From a virus: 23,748 nucleotides of DNA. Shown here piece after piece: positions 2,580 through 20,472 of the stretch. The DNA is taken from positions 1 through 23,748 of IMG/VR virus record IMGVR_UViG_3300048548_000058; one strand, written 5' to 3'. Below the pieces are notes generated by a model. That model did not search any database and was not told the DNA's origin. It was given only the letters and a program-made list of their open reading frames with translations. The position numbers and the translations under genes were made by a program. Each line of letters opens with the position of its first letter. Within the stretch, counting starts at the first letter, position 1.

Positions 2580-2999
2580 TTACATTTTGTATGAATCGTC
2601 AGTAGAAATTTTGACTGGTGCCTGTTCAATACGAATAGTTTGTGCAGGTGCAGTTTGTGCTGCTTTCTCAATCAATCTTTCCATCTGGTCTTTTGTGATA
2701 CCACCATTACTACCACCACCTTCTCCTGCTTTCTTTGCTGCCTGAACACCAAAAGTCGCAAGCACCCCAGTAAAGACACTCGCGATAAAAGTTGGATCTA
2801 GTTTCTGCTCGGGAATTCCCAATGCTGGTGGAAGTTTGATGTATGCCAGCGTGAGTATTCCGCCAGACCAAACAAGAATACCAAGGCGAACAAAGGTAGA
2901 CAGAATAGCAAGCTGTTCTTCTTTGTCATCTGCTGCCTCCTTAATCTTACCAAGAAGACCTTTCTTTTTAGGATCCTCTTTTTTAACTTCTTCTGACAT
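2580..2999 (-). CDS. Two-transmembrane protein, holin-like in shape
   Basis: A 139-aa product. It has a highly charged Lys/Glu N-terminus (residues 1-29), a first membrane helix at about 31-54, a loop, a second helix at about 69-88, a Gly-rich hinge and a charged, amphipathic C-terminal tail. Two helices flanked by charged ends is a holin-like topology, but no holin family signature was recognised. It lies 25 nt after regA, and a CTAAATA box (3021-3027) at the regA stop could give late expression. It is the first of four consecutive unrecognised, mostly membrane-associated genes. Confidence 0.7.
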   Translation of the reverse strand: MSEEVKKEDPKKKGLLGKIKEAADDKEEQLAILSTFVRLGILVWSGGILTLAYIKLPPALGIPEQKLDPTFIASVFTGVLATFGVQAAKKAGEGGGSNGGITKDQMERLIEKAAQTAPAQTIRIEQAPVKISTDDSYKM

Positions 3000-3020
3000 T
3001 AACGAACAGCAAGGCTCTTC

Positions 3021-3027
3021 TATTTAG
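3021..3027 (-). promoter_or_regulatory. Possible late-type promoter box CTAAATA
   Basis: CTAAATA on the - strand overlaps the regA stop, with its near end about 22 nt before ATG 2999. It shares the TAAATA core of the T4 late box TATAAATA. It is a short motif, and the support is its repeated placement just before other gene starts in this window. Confidence 0.35.
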
Positions 3028-3452
3028 GATTCTGTAGGTTGTCTTTTCTTACCAATATTATACTTAGACTCTAGCGTCCATTCGGTTTTTTCTTTATATG
3101 CAATGACTTTAATTTGACTGAGTGGTGCAGCATCTGTCACAACCTCTTCTTTTACAATCTCCACTAGACCCCAGTCAGATAGGAGTTTGATAATTCGGTT
3201 GCGTCGTTGGACATCATTCTCAGATAAGTTTGCTTTCTTACCATCAAGTGCAAATAATTCTTTAAAATGAACAATATAATACTGACCTTTCTTATGTAAG
3301 ATATGACACGACTGAAATAGTTTCCTCTCTTTTCTAGAGGCAACTCCAATACGAGTAAGAGTTTCACGAACTTTTAGGAAGTCATCAGGTTCCTTTAGAT
3401 TCACCTCCACCATATCATTTTTGGTCCACTGAACTTCTTTAGGTTCATTCAT
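3024..3452 (-). CDS. regA: RegA translational repressor
   Basis: A 142-aa protein, somewhat longer than T4 RegA (122 aa). T4 RegA binds mRNA around start codons of early genes, including those of the clamp operon, and blocks translation. The protein resembles RegA along most of its length, with an N-terminal region leading into a K/R-rich segment (GVASRKERKLFQSCHI) and the family-typical QYYIVHFKELFALDGK stretch. The start overlaps gp62 as ATGA. T4 has the same order gp62-regA, which supports the call. The C-terminal 20 or so residues are an extension relative to T4. The T4 neighbour gp43 (DNA polymerase) does not follow here; membrane-protein genes do. Confidence 0.9.
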   Translation of the reverse strand: MNEPKEVQWTKNDMVEVNLKEPDDFLKVRETLTRIGVASRKERKLFQSCHILHKKGQYYIVHFKELFALDGKKANLSENDVQRRNRIIKLLSDWGLVEIVKEEVVTDAAPLSQIKVIAYKEKTEWTLESKYNIGKKRQPTES

Positions 3453-3853
3453 TGTTTCTTACCACCTTTATTCAATTTGTCTTTAATAACCATGAGTTGG
3501 TTTTCGGTAAGAATCCTGAGTGCTTGCATTGCTTTCTCGGTTGAATAACCATAGAACTGTTTTACAAGTTCAATATCCTTCACCTTTTCTTTTTTACCCC
3601 AAGGAGAAAATCTCTTACGGGACCTGACGGTATTTATAAAGAAATCATACTGAAGTTTTTTATCCAATCCAGGATACTGATTCATCTCATTAGAAAACAT
3701 CACAGTATCCATGTGATGAGACATACATTTATTGATGATATATGGAGGATAGTTCTGTTCCCATGCGGGATCTTCATCCTCCATAAGATTCTTTTTAGTC
3801 AAATTGATAGAATTTAAATAATCCTTAAGAGGATACCTGTCATCATACGACAT
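3449..3853 (-). CDS. 62: Clamp loader small subunit gp62
   Basis: A 134-aa protein, shorter than T4 gp62 (187 aa). In T4, one gp62 joins four gp44 subunits to load the gp45 sliding clamp at primer ends. Recognisable cyanophage gp62 features are the N-terminal YPLKDYLNSINLTKKNL stretch, the PPYIINKCMSHHMDTV segment and the basic KRFSPWGKK motif. It starts inside the end of the dam gene (11-nt overlap) and ends overlapping regA (ATGA). In T4 it directly follows gp44; here three genes intervene. An internal TATAAATA on the - strand (3631-3638) reads as Ile-Asn codons and is probably chance. Confidence 0.9.
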   Translation of the reverse strand: MSYDDRYPLKDYLNSINLTKKNLMEDEDPAWEQNYPPYIINKCMSHHMDTVMFSNEMNQYPGLDKKLQYDFFINTVRSRKRFSPWGKKEKVKDIELVKQFYGYSTEKAMQALRILTENQLMVIKDKLNKGGKKQ

Positions 3854-4670
3854 AGTTAAGTAGAAGAAGTTCTTTACGTTGTTGCTGTTCTTTCATATAC
3901 TCACCCACTGAACGCATAGTATAAGTATGATCATACTCATATGGTTTCCAATCAATGAATCTAGACTTGATTAGATTGGAAGAATTATATGATACCATTT
4001 GGTCGCAAGCATGTCTATCACATGCAAAGAAAAACTCATCATGGTCAAATCCTTTGTGCATTCCACCTTTCTTACCATAGAGATTAGACTTAATCTCATA
4101 AGGAGGATCTAGATATACAAACGATTCCTTCTTGTTAGTCAGAAGTTCTTCGTATGACAGATTAGTAATTCTCCAGTCTTGGATGAGTTCTCCGTAATAA
4201 GGGAGTTTGTCAATCCCTCGCATACTAAAGTTAGACTCTGACGCTTGTTTGCTGAAGGAACTGGACTCAGTGAGACCAGAGAAAGAGCACTTATTAACAA
4301 CGTAAAAACTAACAGCACGAGATAGGTTGGATGTCTGATCATTGTTTAATATGTCCTTAGCATCTAAAAATAATTCCTTTGCGGATACAGGTTCTGGATG
4401 ACGATTCTTAAGTTGAACCAACTGGTCACGAAGTTTGCGACCATCATACTGGAGTTCTTTCCAGAAATTATATAATGGTTCGTACAAATCATTCACCCAG
4501 ATATCCAGGTGAGGATACATCTGAGTGATATAAAGAGCAACAGAACCTCCACCAACAAATGGTTCGCGAAATTCTGTGTAGTCTTTGAATAGTGGAAAGA
4601 ACTCTGCCATCTTTTTAGTAGCACGAGACTTACCACCAGGATAACGAAGAGGTGTCTTTAGTGATGTCAT
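3843..4670 (-). CDS. dam: DNA adenine N6-methyltransferase, Dam (D12) family
   Basis: A 275-aa protein. It shows the ordered motifs of the Dam/D12 class: an N-terminal PLRYPGGK (7-14), the AdoMet-binding motif I FVGGGS (38-43), and the catalytic DPPY (188-191). Such enzymes transfer a methyl group from S-adenosylmethionine to the N6 of adenine, usually in GATC. The target here is not shown by the sequence. The length is normal for the family (about 260-280 aa). It overlaps its upstream neighbour as ATGA and gp62 by 11 nt, so it is translated within the clamp-loader operon. A role in protection from host nucleases or in marking replicated DNA is inference. Confidence 0.9.
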   Translation of the reverse strand: MTSLKTPLRYPGGKSRATKKMAEFFPLFKDYTEFREPFVGGGSVALYITQMYPHLDIWVNDLYEPLYNFWKELQYDGRKLRDQLVQLKNRHPEPVSAKELFLDAKDILNNDQTSNLSRAVSFYVVNKCSFSGLTESSSFSKQASESNFSMRGIDKLPYYGELIQDWRITNLSYEELLTNKKESFVYLDPPYEIKSNLYGKKGGMHKGFDHDEFFFACDRHACDQMVSYNSSNLIKSRFIDWKPYEYDHTYTMRSVGEYMKEQQQRKELLLLNYVV

Positions 4671-4960
4671 AGTATAAGTTGCTTGCTTGGAGTGATGATG
4701 TCAGGACCACCAAAGATACTATTATACTGCTTAACAACTTCTGGTTGAACTTCAACAGCATAAATGACATGTTTCATATCAAGAGCAATCTCAGGTTGTT
4801 CCAAATTAATCACTGTTGCCCAAGGAGCAAATCCAATTTGTCCTTGTTGAGGAATAACAACTAGAGCATTCTTGATGGTAAGAATACCGTTACTCCAGTC
4901 AATAACTTCAGCGATAATTTCTTCACCAGAAATAATTCGGATTAGTTTTACATCAATCAT
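4667..4960 (-). CDS. Small LSm-like beta protein, unknown function
   Basis: A 97-aa protein. It starts with a short beta pattern (KLIRIISGEEIIAEVID) followed by DG/NG-type turns and a conserved GFAPW motif. This resembles an Sm/LSm-like barrel and is clearly similar to the 141-aa protein at 16275-16700, which has LLNGEEVLGK and GFAKW in the same order. No function is known to me. It overlaps purS (TAATG) and dam (ATGA), so it belongs to the clamp-loader operon. RNA binding would be a guess from the fold alone. Confidence 0.75.
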   Translation of the reverse strand: MIDVKLIRIISGEEIIAEVIDWSNGILTIKNALVVIPQQGQIGFAPWATVINLEQPEIALDMKHVIYAVEVQPEVVKQYNSIFGGPDIITPSKQLIL

Positions 4961-5235
4961 TATTCAATACCTTTAGGAAAGTCTTCAATTTCAGTCAGTT
5001 CATAGTCCCAGTCTTCCATGACTGTATTGGCAAGGAATCTATCAGATAGCATTTCGAGTTCTTTCTCAGCATACTCTCTGGTCTCTGCTTCCAACCAAAC
5101 ATCGATGACCTTACCAAGTCTAAGTTTCTTGATATCTAACTCAGACAATCTCTTACAGGCATCTCTCACGGCATTGCCAGGAGAGTCATCAACCTGTGAT
5201 CGTAGTCGGACAAATACTAATGCTTTAAATTTCAT
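4960..5235 (-). CDS. purS: PurS-like subunit of phosphoribosylformylglycinamidine synthase
   Basis: A 91-aa protein matching the small PurS family in size and pattern: N-terminal MKFKALVFVRLRSQVDD, a central KKLRLGKVIDVWLEA strand-turn, and a C-terminal LANTVMEDWDYELTEIED. In bacteria PurS bridges PurL and PurQ in the fourth step of purine synthesis. Marine T4-like cyanophages are known to carry purine genes, presumably to boost nucleotide supply. Neither purL nor purQ is in this window, so it would act with host or distant phage subunits. It is embedded between gp44 and an LSm-like gene, overlapping both (ATGA and TAATG), which ties its expression to replication genes. Confidence 0.85.
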   Translation of the reverse strand: MKFKALVFVRLRSQVDDSPGNAVRDACKRLSELDIKKLRLGKVIDVWLEAETREYAEKELEMLSDRFLANTVMEDWDYELTEIEDFPKGIE

Positions 5236-6173
5236 TTGAATTCACACTCCACCATAATTTGAGTTAGACATGCAAGTAGATTAATCTCTTGGTCTACAAC
5301 AAAAGCAGACTTGTACTGGTACTCAGCAATGATTAGAACTGCTGCTGCAATACTAGGACCACCCATGACACCAGATAGATTATCATACAATTTACGCATG
5401 ATAGAAGTTGGATCTGAATCAAGGTTCTGAGTCACCCACTTCTTAACATCATTAAATTTCTTATCCTTTAATGCTGTTACAAGAGTATCAACATTGGCAT
5501 CACCTAACGCCGCCAGAATACCAGTGTCGATAGACCCTGTGCTGGCATAGCGTTGCAACTCATTGAGAGTTCTTCGGAAGTCTGGGAAGTATTTCTGGAC
5601 GACTTCTGCCAAAACTCTAGGAGCGAAGGTGACCTCCTCGCGCCTGAGGATATCTTGACACCTTGTAAAAAACGCACCAGCAAGTTCTTGCTTTGTTTGA
5701 CCTCGGACATTGAACTCTACGACCGTTGTCCTACTATGTAGTGGTTCAATAATCTTGTTTTTGAAGTTACAAGTGAATATGAACCTACAGTTTTTTTGGA
5801 ACTCTTCGATACTTGCACGAAGGAGAAGTTGGACATCTGGGGTTGTGTTATCTGCCTCATCAATGATAAGCACTTTGTGACGAGCAGAAGCAGTGAGAGA
5901 CACAGTAGAGGCAAAGTTCTTTGCCTGATTGCGTACAGTATCCAGGAATCGACCTTCATCCGATCCATTGATAACATAATAATCTGCTCCCAGTTCTTTA
6001 CACAGTGCTTTAGCGATAGTAGTCTTACCAACACCAGCAGTTCCAGACAAGAGGAGATTGGGAATCTCACCTTGGTCAATGAAACTCTGGAAGGTTTGCT
6101 TCACATTGGCAGGAAGAATACACTCCTCAACAGTCTGAGGACGATACTTCTCTACCCATAAAAAATCATTCAT
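5232..6173 (-). CDS. 44: Clamp loader ATPase subunit gp44
   Basis: A 313-aa AAA+ protein close to T4 gp44 (319 aa). It has Walker A GTAGVGKT (44-51), Walker B LIIDEAD (102-108), sensor-1 Asn in FTCN (136) and an SRT arginine-finger motif (147-149; SRC in many clamp loaders). Four copies with gp62 open and load the sliding clamp using ATP. The N-terminal WVEKYRPQTVEE is the classic RFC/DnaX-like beginning. The start overlaps the gp45 stop by one base (TAATG), and the end overlaps purS. Confidence 0.96.
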   Translation of the reverse strand: MNDFLWVEKYRPQTVEECILPANVKQTFQSFIDQGEIPNLLLSGTAGVGKTTIAKALCKELGADYYVINGSDEGRFLDTVRNQAKNFASTVSLTASARHKVLIIDEADNTTPDVQLLLRASIEEFQKNCRFIFTCNFKNKIIEPLHSRTTVVEFNVRGQTKQELAGAFFTRCQDILRREEVTFAPRVLAEVVQKYFPDFRRTLNELQRYASTGSIDTGILAALGDANVDTLVTALKDKKFNDVKKWVTQNLDSDPTSIMRKLYDNLSGVMGGPSIAAAVLIIAEYQYKSAFVVDQEINLLACLTQIMVECEFK

Positions 6174-6832
6174 CAGTTGTTAGGTTCGAGAGCAATAAAA
6201 TACTTGATTCCAGTACCTTGAAAGAGAGCAACATTCTGTCTACTAATAGTGACATTATAATTACCTGCCAAAAGTTTCAGATTCTCAACCTTGAAACAAT
6301 AACAGAACTCATCATCACTCTCACCAACCTCAACAGAGTAACTGTTGGAAGTATCGTTCTTCTTATCAGTTACGCACAAATTCATAGTACCATCAGAACA
6401 GAACAAGCATAGATCAGGAAGTTGATATACACTTGCCGCACGTTGAAGTTGTTGGAGAACTCCTGCATCTAGACGAAACCGTACATCCTCAGAAGGAATA
6501 TTAATCTCCTTTTCTGGAGGTTGAGTGATGATATCTGGGTCTGCATAGAAGAAACGAGTCTTCGACTTACCCCGTTGGTCACTCACAGTAACGTAATTGG
6601 ATTGGGTAGTATCAATCTTTGGAGACTCAAAAAGAGACAAACCACCAAGGAATACACCCAAATCGTAAATAGAAATCTGGGTATCAAACTGTTCTTCAAC
6701 ATCAGCGATAGCAAGAATATTCTTGTTGATGCTGAGAGTAGAAACTGTATTGCCAGGTTTAATTACGATTGATTTGTTGATTGAACAAAAGTTCTTAAGG
6801 ACTTCAATTGTAGATTTGGAAATTACGGTCAT
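6173..6832 (-). CDS. 45: Sliding clamp gp45
   Basis: A 219-aa protein (T4 gp45 has 228). It is a trimeric DNA polymerase processivity clamp, and in T4 it also activates late transcription through gp55 and gp33. The identification rests on overall similarity to the gp45 family (N-terminal MTVISKSTIEVLKNF, FCSINKSIVIKPG), length, and position directly before gp44 with a TAATG junction. The start ATG overlaps the end of the preceding DUF3310-like gene by 4 nt. No individual catalytic residues are expected. Confidence 0.95.
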   Translation of the reverse strand: MTVISKSTIEVLKNFCSINKSIVIKPGNTVSTLSINKNILAIADVEEQFDTQISIYDLGVFLGGLSLFESPKIDTTQSNYVTVSDQRGKSKTRFFYADPDIITQPPEKEINIPSEDVRFRLDAGVLQQLQRAASVYQLPDLCLFCSDGTMNLCVTDKKNDTSNSYSVEVGESDDEFCYCFKVENLKLLAGNYNVTISRQNVALFQGTGIKYFIALEPNN

Positions 6833-7110
6833 TGAGGGTAGGTTTCGGTAACTTTAGTTTTATCGGAAAAATGGAGGAGGAGCAATCCGTAGTGTAAGAT
6901 CTTAATGATATCACGACGGGCAGTGCCCTTGCGATCATAGCGTGAGGCATACTTTAGGATGTTGCTACGACAGAATGCCTCTGCATCACCACACGCTTCA
7001 ATCAAGTCTAGCGTTTGAATCTCATCGTTGCCAGCAGAATAATGCTGACCATAGGTCCCAGAAATATAGTCGCGCAACTCCTTGAGAAGCGCATCTTCAT
7101 TGTACTTCAT
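6829..7110 (-). CDS. DUF3310-like small protein
   Basis: A 93-aa product. I chose ATG 7110 (MKYNEDAL) instead of an in-frame TTG two codons upstream, because ATG 7110 follows the cobS-like stop by 2 nt. The central segment with IEACGDAEAFCRSNILKY, then RYDRKG and a helix ending in HYGLLLL, has the pattern of the phage DUF3310/SaV-like family (helix, LKY, R..K, second helix). The function of that family is not firmly known; some members are annotated as nucleotide kinase-like without strong proof. It sits between cobS-like and gp45 and overlaps gp45 as ATGA. Confidence 0.78.
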   Translation of the reverse strand: MKYNEDALLKELRDYISGTYGQHYSAGNDEIQTLDLIEACGDAEAFCRSNILKYASRYDRKGTARRDIIKILHYGLLLLHFSDKTKVTETYPQ

Positions 7111-7112
7111 AA

Positions 7113-8183
7113 TCAAATGGTTTCTTCTTCTTCATTGTACTCTGAATCTTCTCCAGCGTCAACCTTTGTATAGAGATCCAGGAAAGATTGTTTAGTGTCG
7201 TCATCAAAACGATTGATACACATGTTGACGGCAGTAAGACGGTCACTAAAAATCTCCATCGCTTGTGCAATATGAACTAAACGACGTGTTGTGATTACTT
7301 CATCAACACCACCATCAAAGAAAGTCTTACGAATGACACCTGCCCACCTCACAAGATTCTCTGCGAAGATAGTATCACAACCCATATTTCGTAGAATTTT
7401 TTCTTCTACCGATGCAGTTGGATAATCTTGCTCGAATGTAATTGGAAAACGTTCGAGGAATGCTTCGTTGAGAATATTGGTTCCAACAAAGCGACCGTCA
7501 TCGCTGCCTTTACCTTTAGTATTTGCAGTTGCAATAACATTGAATCCTTCCTTAGGAGTTACATATTTACCAATTTTCTTGAGGAAAACACCCTTGCCCT
7601 CAAGTACAGATTGCAGACACAAGATTTTATTAGATGCCAGGTCAATCTCATCTAGAAGAAGTATAGCTCCACGTTCCAGAGCTTCGATGACTGGACCATT
7701 ATGCCAAACAGTGTCACCATTAACAAGACGAAAACCACCAATAAGATCGTCTTCATCAGTTTCGATTGTGATGTTGACACGAATCAACTCGCGTTTCGCT
7801 GCAGCACAAGCCTGCTCAACGGACAAGGTTTTACCATTACCTGAAAGACCCGTGATAAAAATAGGATAAAATTTATTAGAGGAGATAACTTTGCGAACAG
7901 ATGCGAAGTTACCAAAAGGGACATAGGAATCATCTTTTACAGGAATGTAATTAGATACAGGTGTTGCAGAGGGTGCTTCATATGCTTGCTCAATTTCTTG
8001 AACAGTTAGGTTCCATTTACCCCTACCAGATTTATAAGAGTCAAGACGTTTGGTAGCAGTAGCATACGATACACCAAGAGATGCTGCTGAACTACGGACC
8101 TGAATAGTATCAACCTCACAACCATATAGTTCGGTCAGATGATTGACAAGGGCTGTTGTAGTGACTTCAGACTTGCGGGGCAT
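7113..8183 (-). CDS. cobS: CobS-like (MoxR-type) AAA+ ATPase
   Basis: A 356-aa protein. Residues 1-60 form a helical DNA-binding-like or adaptor region (SAASLGVSYATATKRL resembles a helix-turn-helix). An AAA+ core follows, with Walker A GLSGNGKT (112-119), Walker B ILLLDEID (174-181) and sensor-1 ATANT. The tail is acidic (EEEET). In cyanophage genomes this gene is usually called cobS, after the ATPase of the aerobic cobaltochelatase. The core is equally that of a MoxR chaperone, which works with a VWA-domain partner such as the gene at 9090-11183. The start is ATG 8183 behind AAAGGAAAG. It has its own promoter at 8207-8215. Confidence 0.88.
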   Translation of the reverse strand: MPRKSEVTTTALVNHLTELYGCEVDTIQVRSSAASLGVSYATATKRLDSYKSGRGKWNLTVQEIEQAYEAPSATPVSNYIPVKDDSYVPFGNFASVRKVISSNKFYPIFITGLSGNGKTLSVEQACAAAKRELIRVNITIETDEDDLIGGFRLVNGDTVWHNGPVIEALERGAILLLDEIDLASNKILCLQSVLEGKGVFLKKIGKYVTPKEGFNVIATANTKGKGSDDGRFVGTNILNEAFLERFPITFEQDYPTASVEEKILRNMGCDTIFAENLVRWAGVIRKTFFDGGVDEVITTRRLVHIAQAMEIFSDRLTAVNMCINRFDDDTKQSFLDLYTKVDAGEDSEYNEEEETI

Positions 8184-8196
8184 TGCTTTCCTTTGT

Positions 8197-8236
8197 TTAC
8201 TTTGTAATTATAGCAGGTTTGGGGTCGTTTTGGGTC
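8197..8236 (-). promoter_or_regulatory. cobS-like promoter with extended -10, inverted repeat and tandem upstream repeats
   Basis: On the - strand, TGCTATAAT (8207-8215) is an extended -10 sigma70 element. Just downstream is the inverted repeat TTACaaaGTAA (8197-8207). Upstream, two tandem 10-bp units, GTTTGGGGTC (8217-8226) and GTTTTGGGTC (8227-8236, + strand sense), occupy the -35 region, which lacks a TTGACA. This pattern fits an activator-dependent promoter. The cobT-like gene has nearly the same leader. Confidence 0.65.
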
Positions 8237-8747
8237 AGACCCAGGACGGTTTTTTATCTGGCAGTCTTAGGTAGTTGTCAGATACCCATGGTTTAGATGC
8301 AATGTACATCTTGTATGCAGTGAAGATATCAATGCTGGTATCATACTTATACTCGTCAGGTCCTGCAAAGACAAAAGGAGTGTGATCATCCCACTTCACA
8401 TAGGGAATGATTTCATCAGCAGCAATAAGAGTCCTATAACAGGTATGGTTTTTTCCATACCGATTGTAATACTCGTCACATAATGCAACGCCATGCTCAA
8501 GCAACCAGCGAGCATTTGCTATAGTCTCGTTTGCCCAGATAGTACAAGGGTGATTACGGAACGCTCCCTTCTCTGTAGCATAGGGTGTACCGTCTTTCTT
8601 AGGCAAAGTACCATAACCATGCCCCCACTTGTCTGAGGCGACTATAGCGAGCATCTGGCAGGTCTCCAGGGGCATCTTGACGACATGTTTGTCAGGTAGG
8701 ACAGCAGCAGATTTCCATGGAGACTCATCAGTGACAAAGATGTTCAT
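8235..8747 (-). CDS. Conserved phage protein of unknown function
   Basis: A 170-aa product. I chose ATG 8747 (MNIFVTDESP), which overlaps the stop of the upstream membrane gene as ATGA, over an upstream in-frame ATG. Conserved-looking blocks are DKHVVKMPLETCQML (about residues 19-33), an FRNHPCTIWA segment, and a helix WLLEHGVALCDEYYNRYGK with several His, Cys and Trp. The two helical blocks faintly recall the pyrimidine-dimer glycosylase (DenV-like) pattern, but I would not assign that. The family looks familiar from marine T4-like phages, with no function I can name. Its stop lies inside the upstream repeats of the cobS-like promoter. Confidence 0.75.
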   Translation of the reverse strand: MNIFVTDESPWKSAAVLPDKHVVKMPLETCQMLAIVASDKWGHGYGTLPKKDGTPYATEKGAFRNHPCTIWANETIANARWLLEHGVALCDEYYNRYGKNHTCYRTLIAADEIIPYVKWDDHTPFVFAGPDEYKYDTSIDIFTAYKMYIASKPWVSDNYLRLPDKKPSWV

Positions 8748-8953
8748 AGCAAATGCGATACAGAGATCACTAGGAGGAATGTAACCATAATAACGATGTC
8801 CCAAGATTTTGTCCTTACAAAGTAAGGAATTGAAATACTATCACCCACCATCTGCAATACGACACCAAGTGTTGTATTGATATGAAGGATAGTAAAGTAG
8901 GCAATAATCACAAGACCACTGCCCAATACCCTCATGGGAACAGTAATGTTCAT
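8744..8953 (-). CDS. Small two-TM membrane protein
   Basis: A 69-aa product. Hydrophobic segments at about residues 9-35 (VLGSGLVIIAYFTILHINTT and on) and 50-68 (WDIVIMVTFLLVISVSHLL) predict two membrane helices. The start ATG shares its A with the stop of the 46-aa gene upstream (TAATG), and its stop overlaps the next start (ATGA). These junctions support it as real despite its size. No family recognised. Confidence 0.65.
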   Translation of the reverse strand: MNITVPMRVLGSGLVIIAYFTILHINTTLGVVLQMVGDSISIPYFVRTKSWDIVIMVTFLLVISVSHLL

Positions 8954-9093
8954 TAGAATACTGCCGTTACTCCCATGATAGTTGCTCCAGGGTTTCGTGC
9001 CAAGGCAACTTTCTTAGCATCGTCATAGTCTGTAGCAATAACAATTTCATCGAAAACTGTTCCTGCTTTGAATAGTTGTACTTTACACTTCAT
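8953..9093 (-). CDS. 46-aa small protein
   Basis: A 46-aa product (MKCKVQLFKAGTVFDEIVIA, then TDYDDAKKVALARNPGATIM and a short end) from ATG 9093, which overlaps the stop of the cobT-like gene as ATGA. It ends at a TAATG junction with the next gene. The pattern beta-beta-helix (with DYDDAKKVALARNPG) resembles small proteins common in cyanophages. No function is known. It is translationally coupled to the cobT-like gene. Confidence 0.68.
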   Translation of the reverse strand: MKCKVQLFKAGTVFDEIVIATDYDDAKKVALARNPGATIMGVTAVF

Positions 9094-11183
9094 GCGATTT
9101 GCTCAATAAATGCGTTAAGGATGGTCTTGTTTGTCATTTTAGAACCCATATGCTTTTTAAATGCACGAGTGAGTTCTGCTTTAGTTGCAACTTCATGTTT
9201 TTGTTTGACTTCAAGATCCATAGACCCCATCCCAGTATTCTTATCTGGCATGTAAAACGCTTCAGTAAATCCTGCTCGTTCTTTAATAGAAGCAAACTTC
9301 TCCTTTCTCCACTGTTTATCAATAGCATCAATTTCATCATATGCAAAATCACGAACAAGTTTAGTCAAATCACTTTTGCCACATAGACGAATGCCAATCC
9401 AATTATAATCAGTAATCTCACGATAGAATGACACTATCGCCTTTGTAGTTTCATATGGTTGACTTGAGATTTTACGAGTGTATCCAGTCTTAGGGTCGCG
9501 AAGAAAGAATAGTTTACCACGAGTGTGACAAAGATACTGACAATGATACTCACCAGCACGATAAGCATGGTCGTCAGAGAACTGATGAACGTAACTCATA
9601 GGATTTGCTTCACCATCAGTCAGGCAAATAACGTTAACCTTGCTAACACGATCAACCCTTTTCATAGTTTCCACAATACTACGAGTGCAATAAACCGCTT
9701 CTGCAAGAGGAGTGCCACCAAGAGTATATGGACTGTAATGAGATAGTCTCCATCCAGACATAGAAAAGACTTGTAGATAAACAAGTTTCATAGACTTCTC
9801 TAGAGATTGCTTATTCTGACGAGAAGAGAACATCTCAAACAATCGAAAACATTCTGATATAGCAAGTTCGCCTGGATTACTCTCCGTAGGTTCAATGTTT
9901 GTTGAAACATATCCAGACTGAAAAGCAAATACCCTGAATGGAATGCCCGACTTTTTACAGAACCAAATCAGATTATAAACCTGCTTCAGAGTGTCTAGAA
10001 GTTGATGTTGCATAGAACCAGACCAGTCAATATGCATCACCAGTCCATGATTCTTACCCTCAGGGATGATAGTAATTTTCTTGAAGATGTCATCGTTATA
10101 CTTGTAAGTATGTAGTTTGTTAGTGTCAAGAACACCAGTCTTAGAAGTTGCTGCACGTTTATATTCGTCAGCCGACTTCCTCATTTCAAACTGCTTGCAC
10201 AAATAGTTGACAGTCTTCTGAGTATCTTTTTTAAAGGAAGTATAATGATCTATAGCATATTCAACGTTATCTTTCCAATCAGGTCTACGACTTTCATCGT
10301 AGAAATGGTTATTCAAATTGTCTTGAATTTCATTGAAAGGAACAATATAATTATCAATTTTAGGATCGGGTATATTAAGATACACCCATTCCTTTGCATC
10401 GTCATCTACAAGAGTTTCTAGTGCTTGAGCAAGTGCTTCATCAGTAACAGACTTAGTTTCATCACTACCATAGTATGGAGTAAGTTCTGATTGTGATGCA
10501 GAATCTTCTTGTTGCTGCTCATCTTCTCCATCATAATCACTTTCACTCTCATCATCACCGTCTTCAGAGGAAGGATTTATCTCTTCTTCGCGGTCTGCTT
10601 GTTTGTTACCATTAGCAGAAGGTGGAGGAAGTACATCTTCTTCTTTTTCTTCCTGTTTTTCCGAACAGAAATCGTAAAGTTCTGTCGCAAGATCAATAAC
10701 ATCTTGGAAAGTCTTAGTCAATTCTACACGTTCAACCCATACCAACTCTTCATCATCAAATAAAATATTAGGATTGCCCTTGAAGTAAAGATTGATACGA
10801 TCAATCAAAGACAAGGTATCAAGGTTATCATCTTTCACACCAAAGAAATCTCTCTCCCAAAGTTCTTTATAACCTTCAAAGAAGGAACGACGGAGACCAG
10901 GATAAGTACGCTTCATCATACGCTCAATACGAGCATCCTCTATGACATTCACGAATGCTTTTGAAGTAGTACCAAAATCCTCATTGGGTGTATAGAGAGC
11001 ATGTCCCACTTCATGCCCTACCAGAAGGTCATATACCGTGTTAGAGGCAGTCTTCCAGATGGGGAGGATGAGAGTCCTACTATTAACATCGAAACAGGCA
11101 GTGCTAACCTTACGATGCTCTACTTGAAGATTCTCCGTAGCGAGCAGTTTGGCGAGAGTGCCTTTGACTTCCTGAGTGTTCAT
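9090..11183 (-). CDS. cobT: CobT-like protein: HExxH metallopeptidase domain plus VWA domain
   Basis: A 697-aa protein. I chose ATG 11183 (MNTQEVKG) behind AAGAGAGACGG, not the ATG 14 codons earlier that lies inside the promoter. Near the N-terminus is HEVGHAL (57-63), a zinc-metallopeptidase HExxH motif, followed by NVIEDARIE (79-87), a likely third-ligand helix. Residues about 175-235 are a strongly acidic linker. The C-terminal half is a von Willebrand A domain with MIDAS DWSGS (386-390), a downstream GTPLAEA threonine motif and the LTDGEAN aspartate. CobT of the aerobic cobaltochelatase has a similar acidic-linker plus VWA layout, and the CobS-like ATPase is nearby. The peptidase motif suggests a protein-processing or remodelling machine instead. 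Confidence 0.85.
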   Translation of the reverse strand: MNTQEVKGTLAKLLATENLQVEHRKVSTACFDVNSRTLILPIWKTASNTVYDLLVGHEVGHALYTPNEDFGTTSKAFVNVIEDARIERMMKRTYPGLRRSFFEGYKELWERDFFGVKDDNLDTLSLIDRINLYFKGNPNILFDDEELVWVERVELTKTFQDVIDLATELYDFCSEKQEEKEEDVLPPPSANGNKQADREEEINPSSEDGDDESESDYDGEDEQQQEDSASQSELTPYYGSDETKSVTDEALAQALETLVDDDAKEWVYLNIPDPKIDNYIVPFNEIQDNLNNHFYDESRRPDWKDNVEYAIDHYTSFKKDTQKTVNYLCKQFEMRKSADEYKRAATSKTGVLDTNKLHTYKYNDDIFKKITIIPEGKNHGLVMHIDWSGSMQHQLLDTLKQVYNLIWFCKKSGIPFRVFAFQSGYVSTNIEPTESNPGELAISECFRLFEMFSSRQNKQSLEKSMKLVYLQVFSMSGWRLSHYSPYTLGGTPLAEAVYCTRSIVETMKRVDRVSKVNVICLTDGEANPMSYVHQFSDDHAYRAGEYHCQYLCHTRGKLFFLRDPKTGYTRKISSQPYETTKAIVSFYREITDYNWIGIRLCGKSDLTKLVRDFAYDEIDAIDKQWRKEKFASIKERAGFTEAFYMPDKNTGMGSMDLEVKQKHEVATKAELTRAFKKHMGSKMTNKTILNAFIEQIA

Positions 11184-12642: not shown

Positions 12643-12649
12643 TATTTAG
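12643..12649 (-). promoter_or_regulatory. Possible late-type promoter box CTAAATA
   Basis: CTAAATA on the - strand overlaps the gp46 stop codon, with its near end about 23 nt before the TTG start of the 104-aa gene. It is the same box and similar spacing as before gp3 and the two-TM gene. Confidence 0.35.
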
Positions 12650-14367
12650 GACTCATCTGACATCTTGGAAAAGTCATTAATCTTTTCAAACTTCAGTGTT
12701 CGCAAGAACTTATCGACAAGAATGTCTCCTTTGTGTGAGATAACAAAGACATTTGTCTCTTGTCCCAAACTTCTAAGAATACTTAGTAGTTCTGCTGTGG
12801 CAGAAGAATCTAGAGAACTATCAAATACTTCATCAAGAATGAGCAAATTGGTGGCAACACTATTTTTCATCCGAGCAACTTCACGCCATGTAAACAGAAG
12901 TGCTAAATCAATCTTCTGCTTCTCACCTTCAGAGAAGGATGCATAAGAAAACTCATCTCTAAAGCGACTCTTGATGACTTCATTAAACTCCTCATCTAAA
13001 GTAAAGTTAACAAAGAAATCCATTGACTGAAGATACTTGTTAATTAGTTGATTGAAGATAGGAATATATTTTTTAATAATCTGACTTTTAATTCCCGAAT
13101 CTTTAAGAAGAGAAGCAACGACTTGAAACTCATCTAATTGCCGACTAACTGCAGAGCAGTCTTCCTCAGTTTTACTGTGCTCTTTTTGATACTCAAATAA
13201 AATTTCTTCTTCCTGATCAATATTAGGTGTACTCTGTTGTAGTTCAACGATTTCATTTGTAATACGAAGATTCTCCATTTCAATACGAACAATCTCTCGT
13301 TCAAATGCAGATGCATCACTACGAACTTCATAGAGTTGAGCAGATGTATCCTCCATCTTAGTAACAACATCTACTGCATCAGTAATATCTTTAGTGAAAC
13401 CTTCAATCTCACTTGCAAGAATTTTACCTGATGAAGACATCAGAGTAACTTTCTCCCTCTTAAACTCAGTGTTTATATCTTGACTACAAGTAGGACAAAC
13501 ATCATGGTCCTTGAAGAACTTCATGTTTCTTGCAATCAGTTTTAGTTCAGACTTTCTATCTGATTGACCTTGACGAAGTTTACGAACAAATTTTTTCTGT
13601 TCTTCAATGTCACCCATCTGTTCTTCTAGGATAACAACTTCATCTTTTTTTAATTTATGGTGTGTATGCAGTTCTTGAATACGTTCTGCATTTGCATTAT
13701 AAGTATCTTGTTTCTCTTCTTGACGATTTTGATTTACCTCTTTCAAAGAAGCAATCAACTTCTGTTGACTGTCAACCTTTTCCTTTGTTAGGCGAAGCAT
13801 ATGACCACAGTCATTATTCTGACTTTGAGCTGTACGAACACGATCTTTTAAAAGATTGTTCATGTTAGAGAATATATTGATATCCAAAAGGTCTTCAATT
13901 ACTTCTCGTCTGTGAGCAGCAGGAAGTTGCATGAAGGGAACAAAGGTGCTAGACCCAAGAATGACAACTTGGGTGAATGACTTATAGTTAAGTTTAAGTA
14001 CAGATTGTTCGAGATACTTTTGCGTATCCTTAGTAGCAGCATCCTGGTCAACTAGTTTGTTATTCTTATAAAGTTCAAATGCATTTGGTTTAATACCTCT
14101 GAATACACGGTACTCATCTTTACCTATAGAAAAAGTAACCTCCACTTTACAACCCTTTTCATTGATAGAGTTTACCAACTGAGGTTTGTTTATTTTACGG
14201 AATGCCTTTCCGAACAAAGCAAAACACAGGGCGTCCAACATAGTGGACTTCCCTGCGCCATTAGAACCTACAATAAGTGTTGATGATGATTCACAAAAAT
14301 CAATCTCCGTCCACTGATCTCCTGTTGAAAGGAAGTTTTTCCAGCGGATAGTCTCAAATATAATCAT
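12646..14367 (-). CDS. 46: Recombination endonuclease large subunit gp46 (Rad50/SbcC-like)
   Basis: A 573-aa SMC-like ATPase, close to T4 gp46 (560 aa). It has Walker A GSNGAGKS (34-41), long coiled-coil arms with a zinc-hook CPTC (291-294), ABC signature SFSEGEK (477-483) and Walker B LLILDEVFD (508-516). With gp47 it resects DNA ends and degrades host DNA to feed recombination-dependent replication. The start overlaps the 83-aa gene as TAATG. Confidence 0.96.
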   Translation of the reverse strand: MIIFETIRWKNFLSTGDQWTEIDFCESSSTLIVGSNGAGKSTMLDALCFALFGKAFRKINKPQLVNSINEKGCKVEVTFSIGKDEYRVFRGIKPNAFELYKNNKLVDQDAATKDTQKYLEQSVLKLNYKSFTQVVILGSSTFVPFMQLPAAHRREVIEDLLDINIFSNMNNLLKDRVRTAQSQNNDCGHMLRLTKEKVDSQQKLIASLKEVNQNRQEEKQDTYNANAERIQELHTHHKLKKDEVVILEEQMGDIEEQKKFVRKLRQGQSDRKSELKLIARNMKFFKDHDVCPTCSQDINTEFKREKVTLMSSSGKILASEIEGFTKDITDAVDVVTKMEDTSAQLYEVRSDASAFEREIVRIEMENLRITNEIVELQQSTPNIDQEEEILFEYQKEHSKTEEDCSAVSRQLDEFQVVASLLKDSGIKSQIIKKYIPIFNQLINKYLQSMDFFVNFTLDEEFNEVIKSRFRDEFSYASFSEGEKQKIDLALLFTWREVARMKNSVATNLLILDEVFDSSLDSSATAELLSILRSLGQETNVFVISHKGDILVDKFLRTLKFEKINDFSKMSDES

Positions 14368-14618
14368 TAGGGAGGAGGAATAACTAGGTCGTCTTTAGAA
14401 ATTACTGAATACTTATACCCATAATTGCTGCAATTTATAGCAACAACTTCGGGTTCTACTTCTACTATATCAAAATCATCAGAGTAATCATTTGCACTTA
14501 ACTGTTCTCGGTATCTGATTGCATCATCTTCCTCTTCAAAAAGGCGAATGATTTTACTGTTTGTAGTGGTACGAACAGCATAAACACCGCCATTTTTTAT
14601 GTCAGTTAAGATGAACAT
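14367..14618 (-). CDS. DUF3110-like small protein between gp47 and gp46
   Basis: An 83-aa protein. It has a beta start (MFILTDIKNGGVYAVRTT), the block LFEEEDDAIRYREQL (about 26-40) and then NCSNYGYKYSVIS. This order matches cyanobacterial DUF3110 proteins, which have FEDEDDA.R(Y/F), then C...GY. Assignment is by memory of that pattern, not by search. Both ends use TAATG overlaps with gp47 and gp46, so it is made together with the nuclease subunits. Function unknown; a host-derived origin is suggested. Confidence 0.7.
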   Translation of the reverse strand: MFILTDIKNGGVYAVRTTTNSKIIRLFEEEDDAIRYREQLSANDYSDDFDIVEVEPEVVAINCSNYGYKYSVISKDDLVIPPP

Positions 14619-15652
14619 TAGATTTCCGATGCCTCCATGTAAAGCGACCTCATCACATTTTTGATATTAGACTTATTTACTTTAAGTTCTATTTCATCTA
14701 TGTAGTTATCAAGAAGAGTCATTGTGTCTTCGGTTTCCAGTATCTTACTACCGTCTTCCAACTCAACACTAAGGTCTTCTATAATTTTAAGATCCCCAAG
14801 AGACATATTATGCAATTGTTGAACTGTGTAGTCAAACTTTGCATAGTCACCTTTGTCTTCTACAATGAGTTTAACGAATGCTCCTTGAAGTTCGTTTTCA
14901 TCTGGTAGAGTAACTCCACCATTATAATAGAGTTTGTGAAAAGTGTCAAAGGGATTTTTATAAAATGTTGTCTTAAGAGTTTTAGTATCAAATACATGAA
15001 ACCCTCTCTTACATCCATAATCGTTCCAATACAATTGATATGGATTACCAAGGTAACTTACGTTTTTCTTAGTAGACTTCATATGGTAATGACCAGAGAA
15101 TACTTTCTTGAATTTAGAAAACGCATTCACATCCATACCACTTTGCATTACGTGACCAGGGTGTGCTTCAAAACCATTAAGTTCAAGATGCCCCATGCAT
15201 ACTTCTGCTTCTGTGCTTCCTACCTCTTCCAGAATTTCTGTACGATTTTCATCGCAAATCCAAGGGAGAAGGAGTACAGGAAGATTATCGAAAAAAGCAA
15301 CAGTAGGTTTGGTATGGATTCTGAGGTTGTCGTATTCTCCAAGTAACTCACTTGGGGCGTTAACTCGTAAAGTGTTCTTGTAATAAATATCATGATTCCC
15401 TACGAGCATGTCCATCGTAACGCCCCTTTCTTGAAGAGGTGTGAACCACATATCCTTTGCTGCCTCAAGAGACATAAAGTTAATGGAACGCCTCTTGTCA
15501 AAGGTATCACCTAAACAAATAACATTTGTAATATTATGTGCATCGATGAATGGGAGAACTACCTCTCCATAAAATTTCTTGTAATGGTTGATAAAATGTT
15601 GATTGTCGTTACGAACACCAAAGTGTTGGTCAGTTATCAAAAGAATCTTCAT
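14618..15652 (-). CDS. 47: Recombination endonuclease small subunit gp47 (Mre11/SbcD-like)
   Basis: A 344-aa calcineurin-like phosphoesterase (T4 gp47 has 339). Metal-binding motifs appear in order: DQH (8-10), GDTFD (48-52), GNHD (85-88), MGHLELNG and GHYH, as in Mre11 and SbcD. It works with gp46 as a manganese-dependent nuclease complex. The start overlaps gp55 as ATGA. Confidence 0.96.
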   Translation of the reverse strand: MKILLITDQHFGVRNDNQHFINHYKKFYGEVVLPFIDAHNITNVICLGDTFDKRRSINFMSLEAAKDMWFTPLQERGVTMDMLVGNHDIYYKNTLRVNAPSELLGEYDNLRIHTKPTVAFFDNLPVLLLPWICDENRTEILEEVGSTEAEVCMGHLELNGFEAHPGHVMQSGMDVNAFSKFKKVFSGHYHMKSTKKNVSYLGNPYQLYWNDYGCKRGFHVFDTKTLKTTFYKNPFDTFHKLYYNGGVTLPDENELQGAFVKLIVEDKGDYAKFDYTVQQLHNMSLGDLKIIEDLSVELEDGSKILETEDTMTLLDNYIDEIELKVNKSNIKNVMRSLYMEASEI

Positions 15653-16700: not shown

Positions 16701-18159
16701 AAGCTTTTACTTTGACATCTATGATTTCATAATTAAATTTTTCTTCGTTGTAGACTTTGACTCTCTCCATTAAATGGTTGAGTGTATAGTTGTTACCTCT
16801 GTCTGTAGAGATATCATCAGCAATATCATATAATGTTGCTTGAGATTTATTTTCACCTTTCCTTAGGACACGACCAATAGATTGTAGGTTGCGAACTCTG
16901 GACTTTGAAGGACTTGCGAAAATAACGTTGTGTAATCTTTTGATGTTTATGCCTGTGGAAAACGTACCATATGAAGCAACGATGATTGCATTATCGGATT
17001 GTTCGGTTAGTAATCTGATGTCTTCACGGTCATTAACATCTACTCCACCATGTACGAAATGTACTGGTCTTTCGGTGTAACTATTTATCATCTCGTAAAG
17101 AGGCACTCCATGGCGTTCTACATAGTTGAAAAGGACTAGAGTGTTTCCCTTTAAATCACAAGCAAGATTGCGGATGAATTTGTTCCTACCCTCATGCTCT
17201 ACAAGGTATCCGATCTCATCCTGATAACCTTCAAATAATTTCTCCTCGTGCTTTACTAGAACAATCTTTACTTTCAACTTAGCAACATGCCCCGCTTCCA
17301 TCAGTTGAGCAGTTCGTGTCACTTGTGAGCATCTACCAAAGACACCTTCCAGAACTAATTGATTGACATTTGCACCGTCAAGAGTTCCTGTAAATCCAAT
17401 ACGATATTTACATTCATGCAACTTACCCATCAGAGACGTAAGAGACTTAGCTTTGAAAAGGTGTGCCTCGTCACCGATGACTACATCGAACCTGTCAAAC
17501 CACTTACGAGGTTCCTTATAGATAGATTGCCAAGTGGTAATTACCACCTGATGGTTCGTGTATTTTTCTGCCCCCGCATATATTTTGTGGCAGTTTTCGG
17601 ACGCCATCCAACCATATTCTTCAAAGTCCTTATACATCTGCTCCACTAGAGATGTAGTTGGAACAACAATTAAGATATTTCTGTTCGCATTTGCATGAAA
17701 GCGTACTAATGCATAAATCATCAGAGACTTTCCAGAAGCTGTTGGTGATAATAAAAGTCTCCTATTATATTTTAGTGCCTCGTATATTGCTTTATACTGA
17801 TAATCCCGAACGGGATAAGGTAAGTGAAGAGATTTTACAAAACCTACAACACCCTGAGGAGTGATGAACTCATTCTGTTCTAGTGGATGACCAAAGAACT
17901 TACAGTCTTCAAACTTATATTGATACTTCTTTTCGTCTGCCCACTCTAAAAGATAGTCTAGAAGACCACAATAAATTTCTCCTGTTGCTGGTGAGTACAA
18001 ACGGATCTTTCCGTCCCATCCTTTCCAGCGACGTTGCTTCTGCATATACTTTGCAGACTCAACTTCAAAACAAAAATAATCTGCTAGTTCATAATTGATG
18101 TGAGGTTCTGCCTCAATTTTAAGATAAACTTCATTCTTTTTACGAATACGGAGGTCCAT
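16693..18159 (-). CDS. uvsW: UvsW helicase
   Basis: A 488-aa SF2 helicase (T4 UvsW has 503). The N-terminal DNA-binding domain (QRRWKGWDGKIRLYSP) is followed by Walker A PTASGKS (139-145), DEAH box (230-233), motif III TGT (257-259) and motif VI SIGRVLRKG. UvsW unwinds R-loops and branched DNA and shifts origin-dependent to recombination-dependent replication. Its start lies in the last 20 nt of the oxygenase gene. Confidence 0.96.
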   Translation of the reverse strand: MDLRIRKKNEVYLKIEAEPHINYELADYFCFEVESAKYMQKQRRWKGWDGKIRLYSPATGEIYCGLLDYLLEWADEKKYQYKFEDCKFFGHPLEQNEFITPQGVVGFVKSLHLPYPVRDYQYKAIYEALKYNRRLLLSPTASGKSLMIYALVRFHANANRNILIVVPTTSLVEQMYKDFEEYGWMASENCHKIYAGAEKYTNHQVVITTWQSIYKEPRKWFDRFDVVIGDEAHLFKAKSLTSLMGKLHECKYRIGFTGTLDGANVNQLVLEGVFGRCSQVTRTAQLMEAGHVAKLKVKIVLVKHEEKLFEGYQDEIGYLVEHEGRNKFIRNLACDLKGNTLVLFNYVERHGVPLYEMINSYTERPVHFVHGGVDVNDREDIRLLTEQSDNAIIVASYGTFSTGINIKRLHNVIFASPSKSRVRNLQSIGRVLRKGENKSQATLYDIADDISTDRGNNYTLNHLMERVKVYNEEKFNYEIIDVKVKAYD

Positions 18160-18691
18160 AAAACCATGCTACAAGAGATTTACGCAATCCTGATGTTACA
18201 GGTCTAACCCTGTGCCATTGATCACCTTGAAAAAAGACGGCAGTTCCTGGTTTTGTTTTGAACGATTTATACCTAGGTTCTACCCCTGGACTATATATCT
18301 CCAAATCAAACTCCCCACCTTCATAGTCGTCATTGAGGAAGAGTGACATACTAATCTTTCTTACGTTGCCTCTAACAGGTGTTGGGTGTTGATCTACGTG
18401 CCAATTATACGTGCCTCCTGGTTCATATAATCCATATTGAATAGGTTCAACTCCAGTAATATTAAAGTTCCATCCAGCATCCCTATTCACCTGCTTTACC
18501 ATCTTCAGTAACAGGACATATAACTGCTCATTTTTTACCCATGCTATTTTAGATTTTCGTTTTGTTTCATTCTTTTGGTCATATAACTGACCGTCTTGCC
18601 ACTTAAATAAATTGCCAGACAATGCAGTATTGACTACTTGCATCGACTGGCGATTAAAAGAAACTTGCTTATAATATAAACCGTAATTCAT
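18140..18691 (-). CDS. 2-oxoglutarate/Fe(II) dioxygenase, PKHD type
   Basis: A 183-aa protein. Start ATG 18691 shares its A with the uvsY stop (TAATG); an in-frame ATG nine codons upstream lies inside uvsY and is less likely. Iron ligands HVD (H98, D100) and H160 and the 2-oxoglutarate-binding Arg (R170) are in the family positions, with NDDYEGGEFDL between them as in PiuC-like prolyl hydroxylases. Such enzymes are common in T4-like cyanophages, but their substrates are not known. It lies between uvsY and uvsW, both in recombination. Confidence 0.88.
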   Translation of the reverse strand: MNYGLYYKQVSFNRQSMQVVNTALSGNLFKWQDGQLYDQKNETKRKSKIAWVKNEQLYVLLLKMVKQVNRDAGWNFNITGVEPIQYGLYEPGGTYNWHVDQHPTPVRGNVRKISMSLFLNDDYEGGEFDLEIYSPGVEPRYKSFKTKPGTAVFFQGDQWHRVRPVTSGLRKSLVAWFYGPPYS

Positions 18692-19119
18692 TACATACCA
18701 GTTTGAAACCTTTTCCACTCGATAGCATTTTTGATATGGTATGTTCGACTATTAATTTGTCGCAAGACACCATCAAGATAAAATATTACCTGTTCTATAT
18801 AACCTAATTTGTATTGGAGTTTTCCAATCTCTTCATCAGATTCAATGAACATTGATATCTCTTCTTTTGTTGTAAGTTTTAAATCAAAAGGCATGTCCTT
18901 GTAGATTGCTGCAGGTGCCTTTCCCTTATAGTACAACCACTTATCTCGCGTCATTTTTTTCAATTGTATTTCCCTTTCTTTTTTCATAAGAGAAAATGTA
19001 TTATGATATTCCATATACTTCATGTGAAGTTGTGGAATTTTTAAAGAGTCATTGTCGTGTAAATCGTCATCCAAAACGGAATCAACTTTCCACATTTCCT
19101 GTAGTGTTTCCAGATTCAT
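18691..19119 (-). CDS. uvsY: UvsY recombination mediator
   Basis: A 142-aa protein (T4 UvsY has 137). Start ATG 19119 (MNLETLQEMWKVD) is chosen from the T4 N-terminus MRLEDLQEELKKD; the frame extends 30 codons upstream into another gene. A basic middle (KKMTRDKWLYYKGKAP) and C-terminal INSRTYHIKNAIEWKRFQTG agree with T4 (IKSRGFAIKHIQDMRAFEAG). UvsY loads UvsX recombinase onto gp32-coated DNA. It is coupled to the downstream oxygenase. Confidence 0.92.
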   Translation of the reverse strand: MNLETLQEMWKVDSVLDDDLHDNDSLKIPQLHMKYMEYHNTFSLMKKEREIQLKKMTRDKWLYYKGKAPAAIYKDMPFDLKLTTKEEISMFIESDEEIGKLQYKLGYIEQVIFYLDGVLRQINSRTYHIKNAIEWKRFQTGM

Positions 19120-19881: not shown

Positions 19882-20472
19882 TCAAGATAACTCTAACCAA
19901 GACGTGGCAATATACTTTTCACTAGTCAAGGGCGGATTACCTCTATGAGTATGTGTAAATCCTGCTGGCCAAATCAACAGTGTTCCTTTTGTTGGTTTGT
20001 ATCTTTTAGATTGATATAAGAATTCTGTCTCCCCACCATCTTCCACATCATTTAAATACAACATCGTTGCTAATACTCTACGCTCTGCACCAGAATTATT
20101 ATGTTCGCAGTGCCACAGATGATATCCTTGTTTTGGAAGAGTTTTTTGGATATTTAAATATGTCTGCTGAAGTCTAAATCCACCTGCTTGTTCATATTCT
20201 TCGCAATACGAAGATAGGCACTGTGCAGTTATATTATTATATTCAATTAAAAATTTCATTCCCATAGATTTTGAGATGGTAAGACCATCATCAGGACCAG
20301 TCATAAGTGAAGAATCCACCTTCTCGTTTGGTCTGTTACCTGTCTGAATACTTTTTCTTTTGAAGACACGATTTGCCTCACGCATCTTTTCAAAATACTC
20401 GATCATGGGGAGTGTATCAAAATCTGTGCGAAATACACCAATGAAATCTTCAAAATAATACTCGGTAATCAT
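19882..20472 (-). CDS. 2-oxoglutarate/Fe(II) dioxygenase, prolyl-4-hydroxylase-like, HxE variant
   Basis: A 196-aa protein. The region GYHLWHCEH (117-125) supplies the first ligands with His121 and Glu123, so the usual HxD is HxE. The distal FTHTHRGNPP (172-181) carries the second His, and K186 or a nearby basic residue would hold 2-oxoglutarate. LNDVEDGGETEF (140-151) is the family's core strand-turn. Substrate unknown. It stands alone after a terminator. The start is ATG 20472. Confidence 0.84.
   Translation of the reverse strand: MITEYYFEDFIGVFRTDFDTLPMIEYFEKMREANRVFKRKSIQTGNRPNEKVDSSLMTGPDDGLTISKSMGMKFLIEYNNITAQCLSSYCEEYEQAGGFRLQQTYLNIQKTLPKQGYHLWHCEHNNSGAERRVLATMLYLNDVEDGGETEFLYQSKRYKPTKGTLLIWPAGFTHTHRGNPPLTSEKYIATSWLELS

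Follow-up and report, generated by a model that had tools for sequence, protein, structure and literature searches.

The IMG/VR virus record IMGVR_UViG_3300048548_000058 (positions 1 to 23,748, a 23.7-kb stretch analysed over its full length and called the window here) has the gene content of a T4-like cyanophage and carries genes for a MoxR-type AAA+ ATPase and for a protein that fuses a zincin-like domain to a von Willebrand factor A (VWA) domain. The two products probably form a two-protein, ATP-driven metalloprotease or remodelling machine, and the cobalamin (B12) label that is usually attached to one of the two genes is probably wrong. The features of the two genes are given below with window coordinates, strand and basis.

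7113..8183, minus strand: MoxR-type AAA+ ATPase, 356 amino acids, phrog_249 'CobS'/'porphyrin biosynthesis' (Pfam and phrog match)
7998..8183, minus strand: putative winged-helix-turn-helix (HTH)-like N-terminal extension of the ATPase, residues 1-62, including GRGKWNL (sequence pattern)
7827..7850, minus strand: Walker A GLSGNGKT, ATPase residues 112-119 (identical in 122/124 relatives)
7644..7667, minus strand: Walker B AILLLDEI, ATPase residues 173-180 (LLLDE[IV]D-type in relatives)
9090..11183, minus strand: zincin-VWA protein, 697 amino acids, phrog_459 'peptidase' (phrog match, AlphaFold2 model)
10650..11183, minus strand: N-terminal gluzincin-like domain, residues 1-178 (AlphaFold2 and Foldseek)
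11001..11015, minus strand: HEVGH, residues 57-61, predicted zinc ligands and catalytic Glu (H57, E58 and H61 invariant)
10923..10949, minus strand: NVIEDARIE, residues 79-87, predicted third-ligand helix with E82 (N79, E82, D83, R85 and E87 invariant)
10449..10631, minus strand: acidic disordered linker, about residues 185-245 (low predicted local distance difference test score, pLDDT)
9384..10049, minus strand: VWA domain, about residues 379-600 (Foldseek matches to the NorD VWA domain and MDN1-MIDAS)
10014..10028, minus strand: metal-ion-dependent adhesion site (MIDAS) DWSGS, residues 386-390, with T491 and D523 (invariant residues)
9096..9182, minus strand: C-terminal helix, residues 668-696 (DSSP of the model; possible ATPase contact by analogy with NorD)

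Two viral scans, a genome scan and annotated records together yielded 181 relatives of the larger protein with an intact N-terminus. HExxH followed by NxxEDxR (then a hydrophobic residue and E/D) was present in 181/181, the first motif occurring as HEVGH, HEVSH, HEIGH, HESAH, HEVAH or HEAAH. Three motifs that seemed to be non-HExxH by regular expression were false matches upstream, and the real motif is intact in each case. An alignment of 91 sequences, some as low as about 27% identity and with a mean column identity of 29%, has just 32 invariant columns, among them H57, E58, H61, N79, E82, D83, R85 and E87; the odds, calculated after the fact, of H57, E58, H61 and E82 falling among these 32 columns are about 4e-6. 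The catalytic glutamate of gluzincins is required for catalysis, not merely for holding the metal. Since such a residue is not required for metal binding alone, the invariance of E58 points to hydrolysis.

The predicted fold agrees with the motifs. An AlphaFold2 model of residues 1-178 (pLDDT 88.8, predicted TM-score 0.83) begins with a helix and three strands, which are followed by the HEVGH helix (48-64), the helix bearing the ED pair (75-93) and further helices. Zincins were on top when this model was compared with the PDB using Foldseek, namely ArdC (probability 0.98), selecase (0.95), abylysin (0.89) and jannalysin, with weaker matches to aminopeptidases, ZMPSTE24, PprI and Wss1. The topology, with the HEVGH helix followed by the E82 helix, fits a zincin fold of the gluzincin type. 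In this confident model the two helices succeed one another in the zincin order, and at the level of topology it shows no misplacement of the HEVGH His and Glu that would have counted against a zinc site. The domain shares its sheet, HExxH helix and Glu helix with minigluzincins, ArdC and SprT-type zincins, which are among its best fold matches; however, in those groups the fold occurs by itself, as a small protease or a DNA-binding protein, whereas the phage domain is fused to a VWA domain and paired with an AAA+ protein.

The remainder of the protein resembles partners of AAA+ rings. A sequence-only reading of this DNA had described a 697-residue protein in which HEVGH and a likely third-ligand helix are combined with a very acidic linker and a VWA domain that contains a MIDAS, and the motifs that it named lie where it placed them. 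The protein matches phrog_459 with E=0 (1057.8 bits), and its full-length AlphaFold2 model (pLDDT 83.4, predicted TM-score 0.77) has pLDDT <50 across residues 191-237 in the acidic linker, a 48-residue helix at 301-348, a VWA fold that starts at 379 and the C-terminal helix at 668-696. The MIDAS residues D386, S388, S390, T491 and D523 are all invariant in the 91-sequence alignment. The top three Foldseek matches of the full-length model in the PDB were NorD in NorQD complexes and the fifth was midasin MDN1-MIDAS; each of the two is a VWA domain known to dock on an AAA+ ring. Sequence searches of the PDB gave no significant match, whether the query was the VWA protein, a divergent relative or the family profile.

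The ATPase matches the Pfam families AAA_5 (E=2.3e-18) and CbbQ_C (2.1e-07) and also phrog_249 (1.2e-147), and all of the MoxR-class signatures are present: Walker A GLSGNGKT, Walker B LLLDEID, sensor 1 ATANT and the arginine finger FLERF. Walker A occupies residues 112-119 as first read, whereas Walker B had been placed at 174-181 and is found at 173-180. In a phmmer search of the PDB the protein was about equally close to CobS (9e-18) and NorQ (1.3e-15). Its N-terminal extension had been described as HTH-like and as unnecessary for a chelatase; it does differ from the bona fide CobS extension, and its pattern, with a wing-like GxGxW/YxL end, is conserved and widespread among diverse family members. 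A PDB search with the N-terminus ranked designed repeat proteins first and gave only weak HTH matches, and 'HTH-like' is retained here as a description of the sequence pattern.

These likenesses raise the possibility that the pair acts as a metal-insertion chaperone in the manner of NorQD or CbbQO, with the HExxH motif carrying or sensing a metal for a phage or host metalloenzyme that the pair matures, and without any cutting. The best PDB matches of the VWA protein are NorD VWA domains, the MIDAS and the NorQ-like ATPase are shared, and NorQD inserts iron, with a VWA finger that enters the ATPase pore, a C-terminus that touches the ring and a linker that is twisted by ATP hydrolysis (PMC13036017). 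Furthermore, 2-oxoglutarate (2OG)-Fe(II) oxygenase-like genes, recognized by eye, lie nearby. However, E58 is invariant even though metal binding alone does not need it, and no constant metalloenzyme gene was seen beside the pair; this explanation is considered unlikely. The NorQD paper contains 0 mentions of HExxH or of a zinc site (PMC13036017), whereas the phage VWA protein has HEVGH.

The B12 label was examined against a bona fide cobS-cobT operon as a positive control. The phage pair resembles CobS/CobT in having an AAA_5 plus CbbQ_C ATPase and a partner with the order N-domain, acidic linker and VWA domain. However, the control CobS has CobS_N (PF12556) at 3.9e-08 and the control CobT matches PF06213 at 5.5e-84 and PF11775 at 4.8e-99, whereas in Pfam searches CobS_N was absent from the window ATPase and neither PF06213 nor PF11775 was reached by the VWA protein at the curated cut-offs (0 in a family search of the whole window). 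Among 23 relatives these two families gave one match (E=0.86), and Pfam and NCBIfam searches of the same members returned nothing beyond weak VWA-level chelatase matches. The view that HExxH is no part of cobalt-chelatase subunits was borne out in the CobT proteins sampled, which came from one bacterial family: the motif is absent from 8/8, and the stretch at its position, similar to HDxATHARYAP, is one residue longer and does not conserve the second histidine. As for current annotation, which had been said to treat both genes as chelatase parts, the ATPase is indeed labelled cobS or porphyrin biosynthesis, but the VWA gene is mostly called 'peptidase' in phage records.

A distant relationship to CobT is nevertheless indicated. 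When the profile of the phage N-domain was compared directly with CobT, the match was not significant (E 0.094, probability 0.6%), so that plasmid proteins were needed as intermediates. In hhalign, the phage N-domain profile matched plasmid VWA proteins from Methylobacter (97%, E 2.6e-11) and IncC (96%, E 9.5e-10), and the IncC protein lies just over the PF06213 cut-off (26.6 versus 26.1 bits, E=5e-6). Because these proteins link the two, 'CobT-like' is right at the superfamily level, and the phage and CobT N-domains are distant relatives, of which the phage protein keeps a zinc site that is missing from the CobT proteins sampled.

It has been stated that cyanophage cobT is 'mistakenly annotated as a peptidase' (PMC8651126); in the proposal made there, phage CobS and CobT would team up with the host CobN and so raise B12 and, through it, ribonucleotide reductase. 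This proposal is in keeping with the near-equal distance of the ATPase from CobS and NorQ, with the CobT homology reached through the plasmid protein, and with the presence of CobN in 49/61 and of CobT in 0/61 sampled Prochlorococcus-family genomes. An argument against it from cyanobacteria without CobN was dropped in view of the same count. However, apart from the missing HExxH in CobT and the missing chelatase families in the phage proteins, the distribution of the pair also speaks against it. The Pelagibacter phage HTVC008M carries the pair, although its host clade, SAR11, reportedly has no need of B12 and does not make it (PMC8552899). The assembly of the isolate Nonlabens xiamenensis 1Q3 includes a 188-kb contig that has T4-like phage genes and carries the pair as well, and CobN is absent from that assembly; here Nonlabens is assumed to be the host of the phage. 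In addition, relatives are abundant on enterobacterial conjugative plasmids. We regard a chelatase role as very unlikely.

The two genes are tightly associated. The pair occurs in essentially all ocean T4-like cyanophages; among phage records, 463 have the large VWA gene and 759 have a match to the ATPase, and the record counts of both genes are identical for Synechococcus (365), Cyanophage (61) and Prochlorococcus (24). An ATPase gene frequently found without the VWA gene would have spoken against a joint system, but the ATPase lies near the VWA gene in 145/148 loci with enough flank, nearly always downstream on the same strand with a median gap of about 100 bp. The window has the following genes between and around the pair.

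8953..9093, minus strand: 46-amino-acid open reading frame (ORF), phrog_685; start overlaps the VWA stop
8744..8953, minus strand: 69-amino-acid hydrophobic membrane-type ORF, phrog_2318; variable passenger
8235..8747, minus strand: T4 endonuclease V-type pyrimidine-dimer glycosylase, PF03013 (E=2e-13)
6829..7116, minus strand: DUF3310 protein, PF11753 (E=1.9e-10), directly downstream of the ATPase
6173..6832, minus strand: gp45 clamp, 219-amino-acid ORF, assigned by position
5232..6173, minus strand: gp44, on the ATPase side of the pair
12646..14367, minus strand: gp46, on the other flank of the pair
14618..15652, minus strand: gp47, on the other flank of the pair

The three small genes between the pair, which had been suggested to belong to one system with it, do exist, and the starts of the first two overlap the preceding stops. 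However, the region between the pair holds phrog_685 in 31/136 loci, the pyrimidine-dimer glycosylase in 20/136 and the membrane ORF in 4/136; this variable presence rules them out as fixed components, and they are variable passengers. The DenV-type glycosylase had been missed in the sequence-only reading; homology begins at residue 20 of a longer ORF (8235-8804), and from the sequence the true start is probably at 8747. The neighbouring DUF3310 gene, directly downstream of the ATPase, recurs in 53/67 loci and so varies less than the genes that separate the pair. In addition, two 2OG-Fe(II) oxygenase-like genes, judged by eye from sequence, lie in the upstream part of the window at 18140-18718(-) and 19882-20472(-). 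A scan for the T4 late-promoter motif gave 6 matches against 5.6 expected and provides no timing for the genes.

The surroundings of the pair are mostly genes of DNA replication and recombination. In the window, the ATPase and VWA genes sit between gp44/gp45 and gp46/gp47, all on the minus strand; gp46 is upstream of the pair in 84/97 loci and gp45 is downstream in 64/67. Similar neighbours occur in settings that seem to be unrelated: the pair lies beside UvsX and a primase-helicase in DLP6, beside ligase and Pol III alpha in BUCTxx99, beside primase, DnaB helicase and polymerase in ICP2, and beside a RecA-family ATPase in Mae-Yong1326-1, while in HHTV-2 the genes are near the left end with no clear neighbours. 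On the basis of this context, the target may tentatively be placed in a DNA replication, recombination or repair complex. There are few such settings, all inspected by hand, and the inference of such a target is accordingly weak.

A pair of the same stated architecture, a MoxR gene beside a metallopeptidase-vWA fusion, was described in 2021 in group 2.2 jumbo phages, for which a virion role was proposed (PMC7824862). The cyanophage pair fits this architecture and so represents a kind of system that has already been described, but it and most of its relatives lie inside a replication/recombination block. A virion-assembly chaperone and processing protease, remodelling and trimming structural proteins in head or tail maturation, would accord with the jumbo-phage proposal and with the use of proteolysis in tailed-phage maturation. 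However, most of the settings inspected have replication or recombination neighbours and not head or tail genes, and the plasmid relatives have no virion. T4-like phages, moreover, already have a gp21-type prohead protease. A role in the virion therefore seems rather improbable to us.

Relatives with HExxH are also found on IncC and Methylobacter plasmids, in Chloroflexi and in Escherichia, Microcystis and Vibrio phages. The plasmid relatives are spread across 2359 plasmid records; most of these are enterobacterial and 1932 are conjugative, and many of the matches span the VWA part alone. In the IncC plasmid NZ_CP031610.1 (73885-87642) the block reads AAA-ssb-bet-exo-DUF3150-VWA, and in a Methylobacter plasmid AAA-DUF3150-VWA. 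The IncC proteins resemble the phage pair in HEAAH, NVLEDCRIER and a homologous N-domain but differ in that the ssb, bet, exo and DUF3150 genes separate AAA from VWA and that the N-domain identity is about 22%. The IncC pair thus encloses a recombination operon, and no description of it was found in the literature searched. An operon in an Anaerolineae metagenome-assembled genome (locus L106: ATPase, 2659-4260; HEVGH-VWA protein, 4257-5756(+)) is a possible cellular version. In the halovirus HHTV-2 (locus L211) the zincin (416-1483) and VWA (1703-2989) parts are separate genes, and an AAA gene is at 5983-7365. This virus, with its split cobT, is discussed in PMC8651126. Its gene 2 contains SHEVQHH...VINVLEDNHID and gave a match to the phage profile (E 2.6e-05, probability 75%), and gene 3 is the VWA gene; the motif and the profile match give the peptidase label a sequence basis in that virus too.

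Several points weigh against an ATP-driven metalloprotease. The E-values of the fold matches that the N-domain gave in the PDB are weak (best 0.024). The motif of one relative, BUCTxx99, has degenerated to REVST, which means that some cousins do without zinc. The T4-like loci all share one inherited gene order, so that the DNA context represents no more than a handful of events, and here again the contexts were inspected by hand. The VWA protein of BUCTxx99, a Stenotrophomonas phage (locus L203, 3631-5616(+)), has lost the zinc histidines and kept the ED helix, and by its sequence is a natural pseudo-protease cousin.

The metalloprotease or remodelling machine that we favour can be outlined by analogy with NorQD and gluzincins, on which ring formation, the docking mode and proteolysis are modelled. 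The MoxR-type ATPase would assemble as a hexameric ring, on which the VWA domain would dock while holding the target through its MIDAS. ATP hydrolysis would pull or twist the acidic linker and bring the target to the N-terminal gluzincin domain, where H57, H61 and E82 would hold zinc and E58 would activate water, and the domain would cut the target or at least remodel it.

The published readings of these genes conflict (PMC7824862 versus PMC8651126), and HExxH is a simple sequence criterion between them; the sequence data favour the metallopeptidase reading of PMC7824862 over that of PMC8651126. What is new here is the invariance of the catalytic set, the fold support, the contrast with the CobT and CobS proteins sampled, the relatives on plasmids and in a halovirus, and the setting of the pair in DNA modules. 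More speculatively, the pair may belong to a broad class of phage and plasmid ATP-driven metalloproteases that act on protein-DNA complexes during replication or recombination, for example by removing proteins from recombining DNA, in which case true CobT would be a relative that has lost the zinc site and 'cobS' would be no B12 auxiliary metabolic gene in cyanophages. The gene belongs to the cyanophage core of 25 genes (PMC3037559), and it has repeatedly been counted as a B12/nucleotide auxiliary metabolic gene (e.g. PMC9723779, PMC5083919). If the pair is indeed an ATP-driven metalloprotease, ocean-wide inventories of auxiliary metabolic genes would be miscounting cobS.

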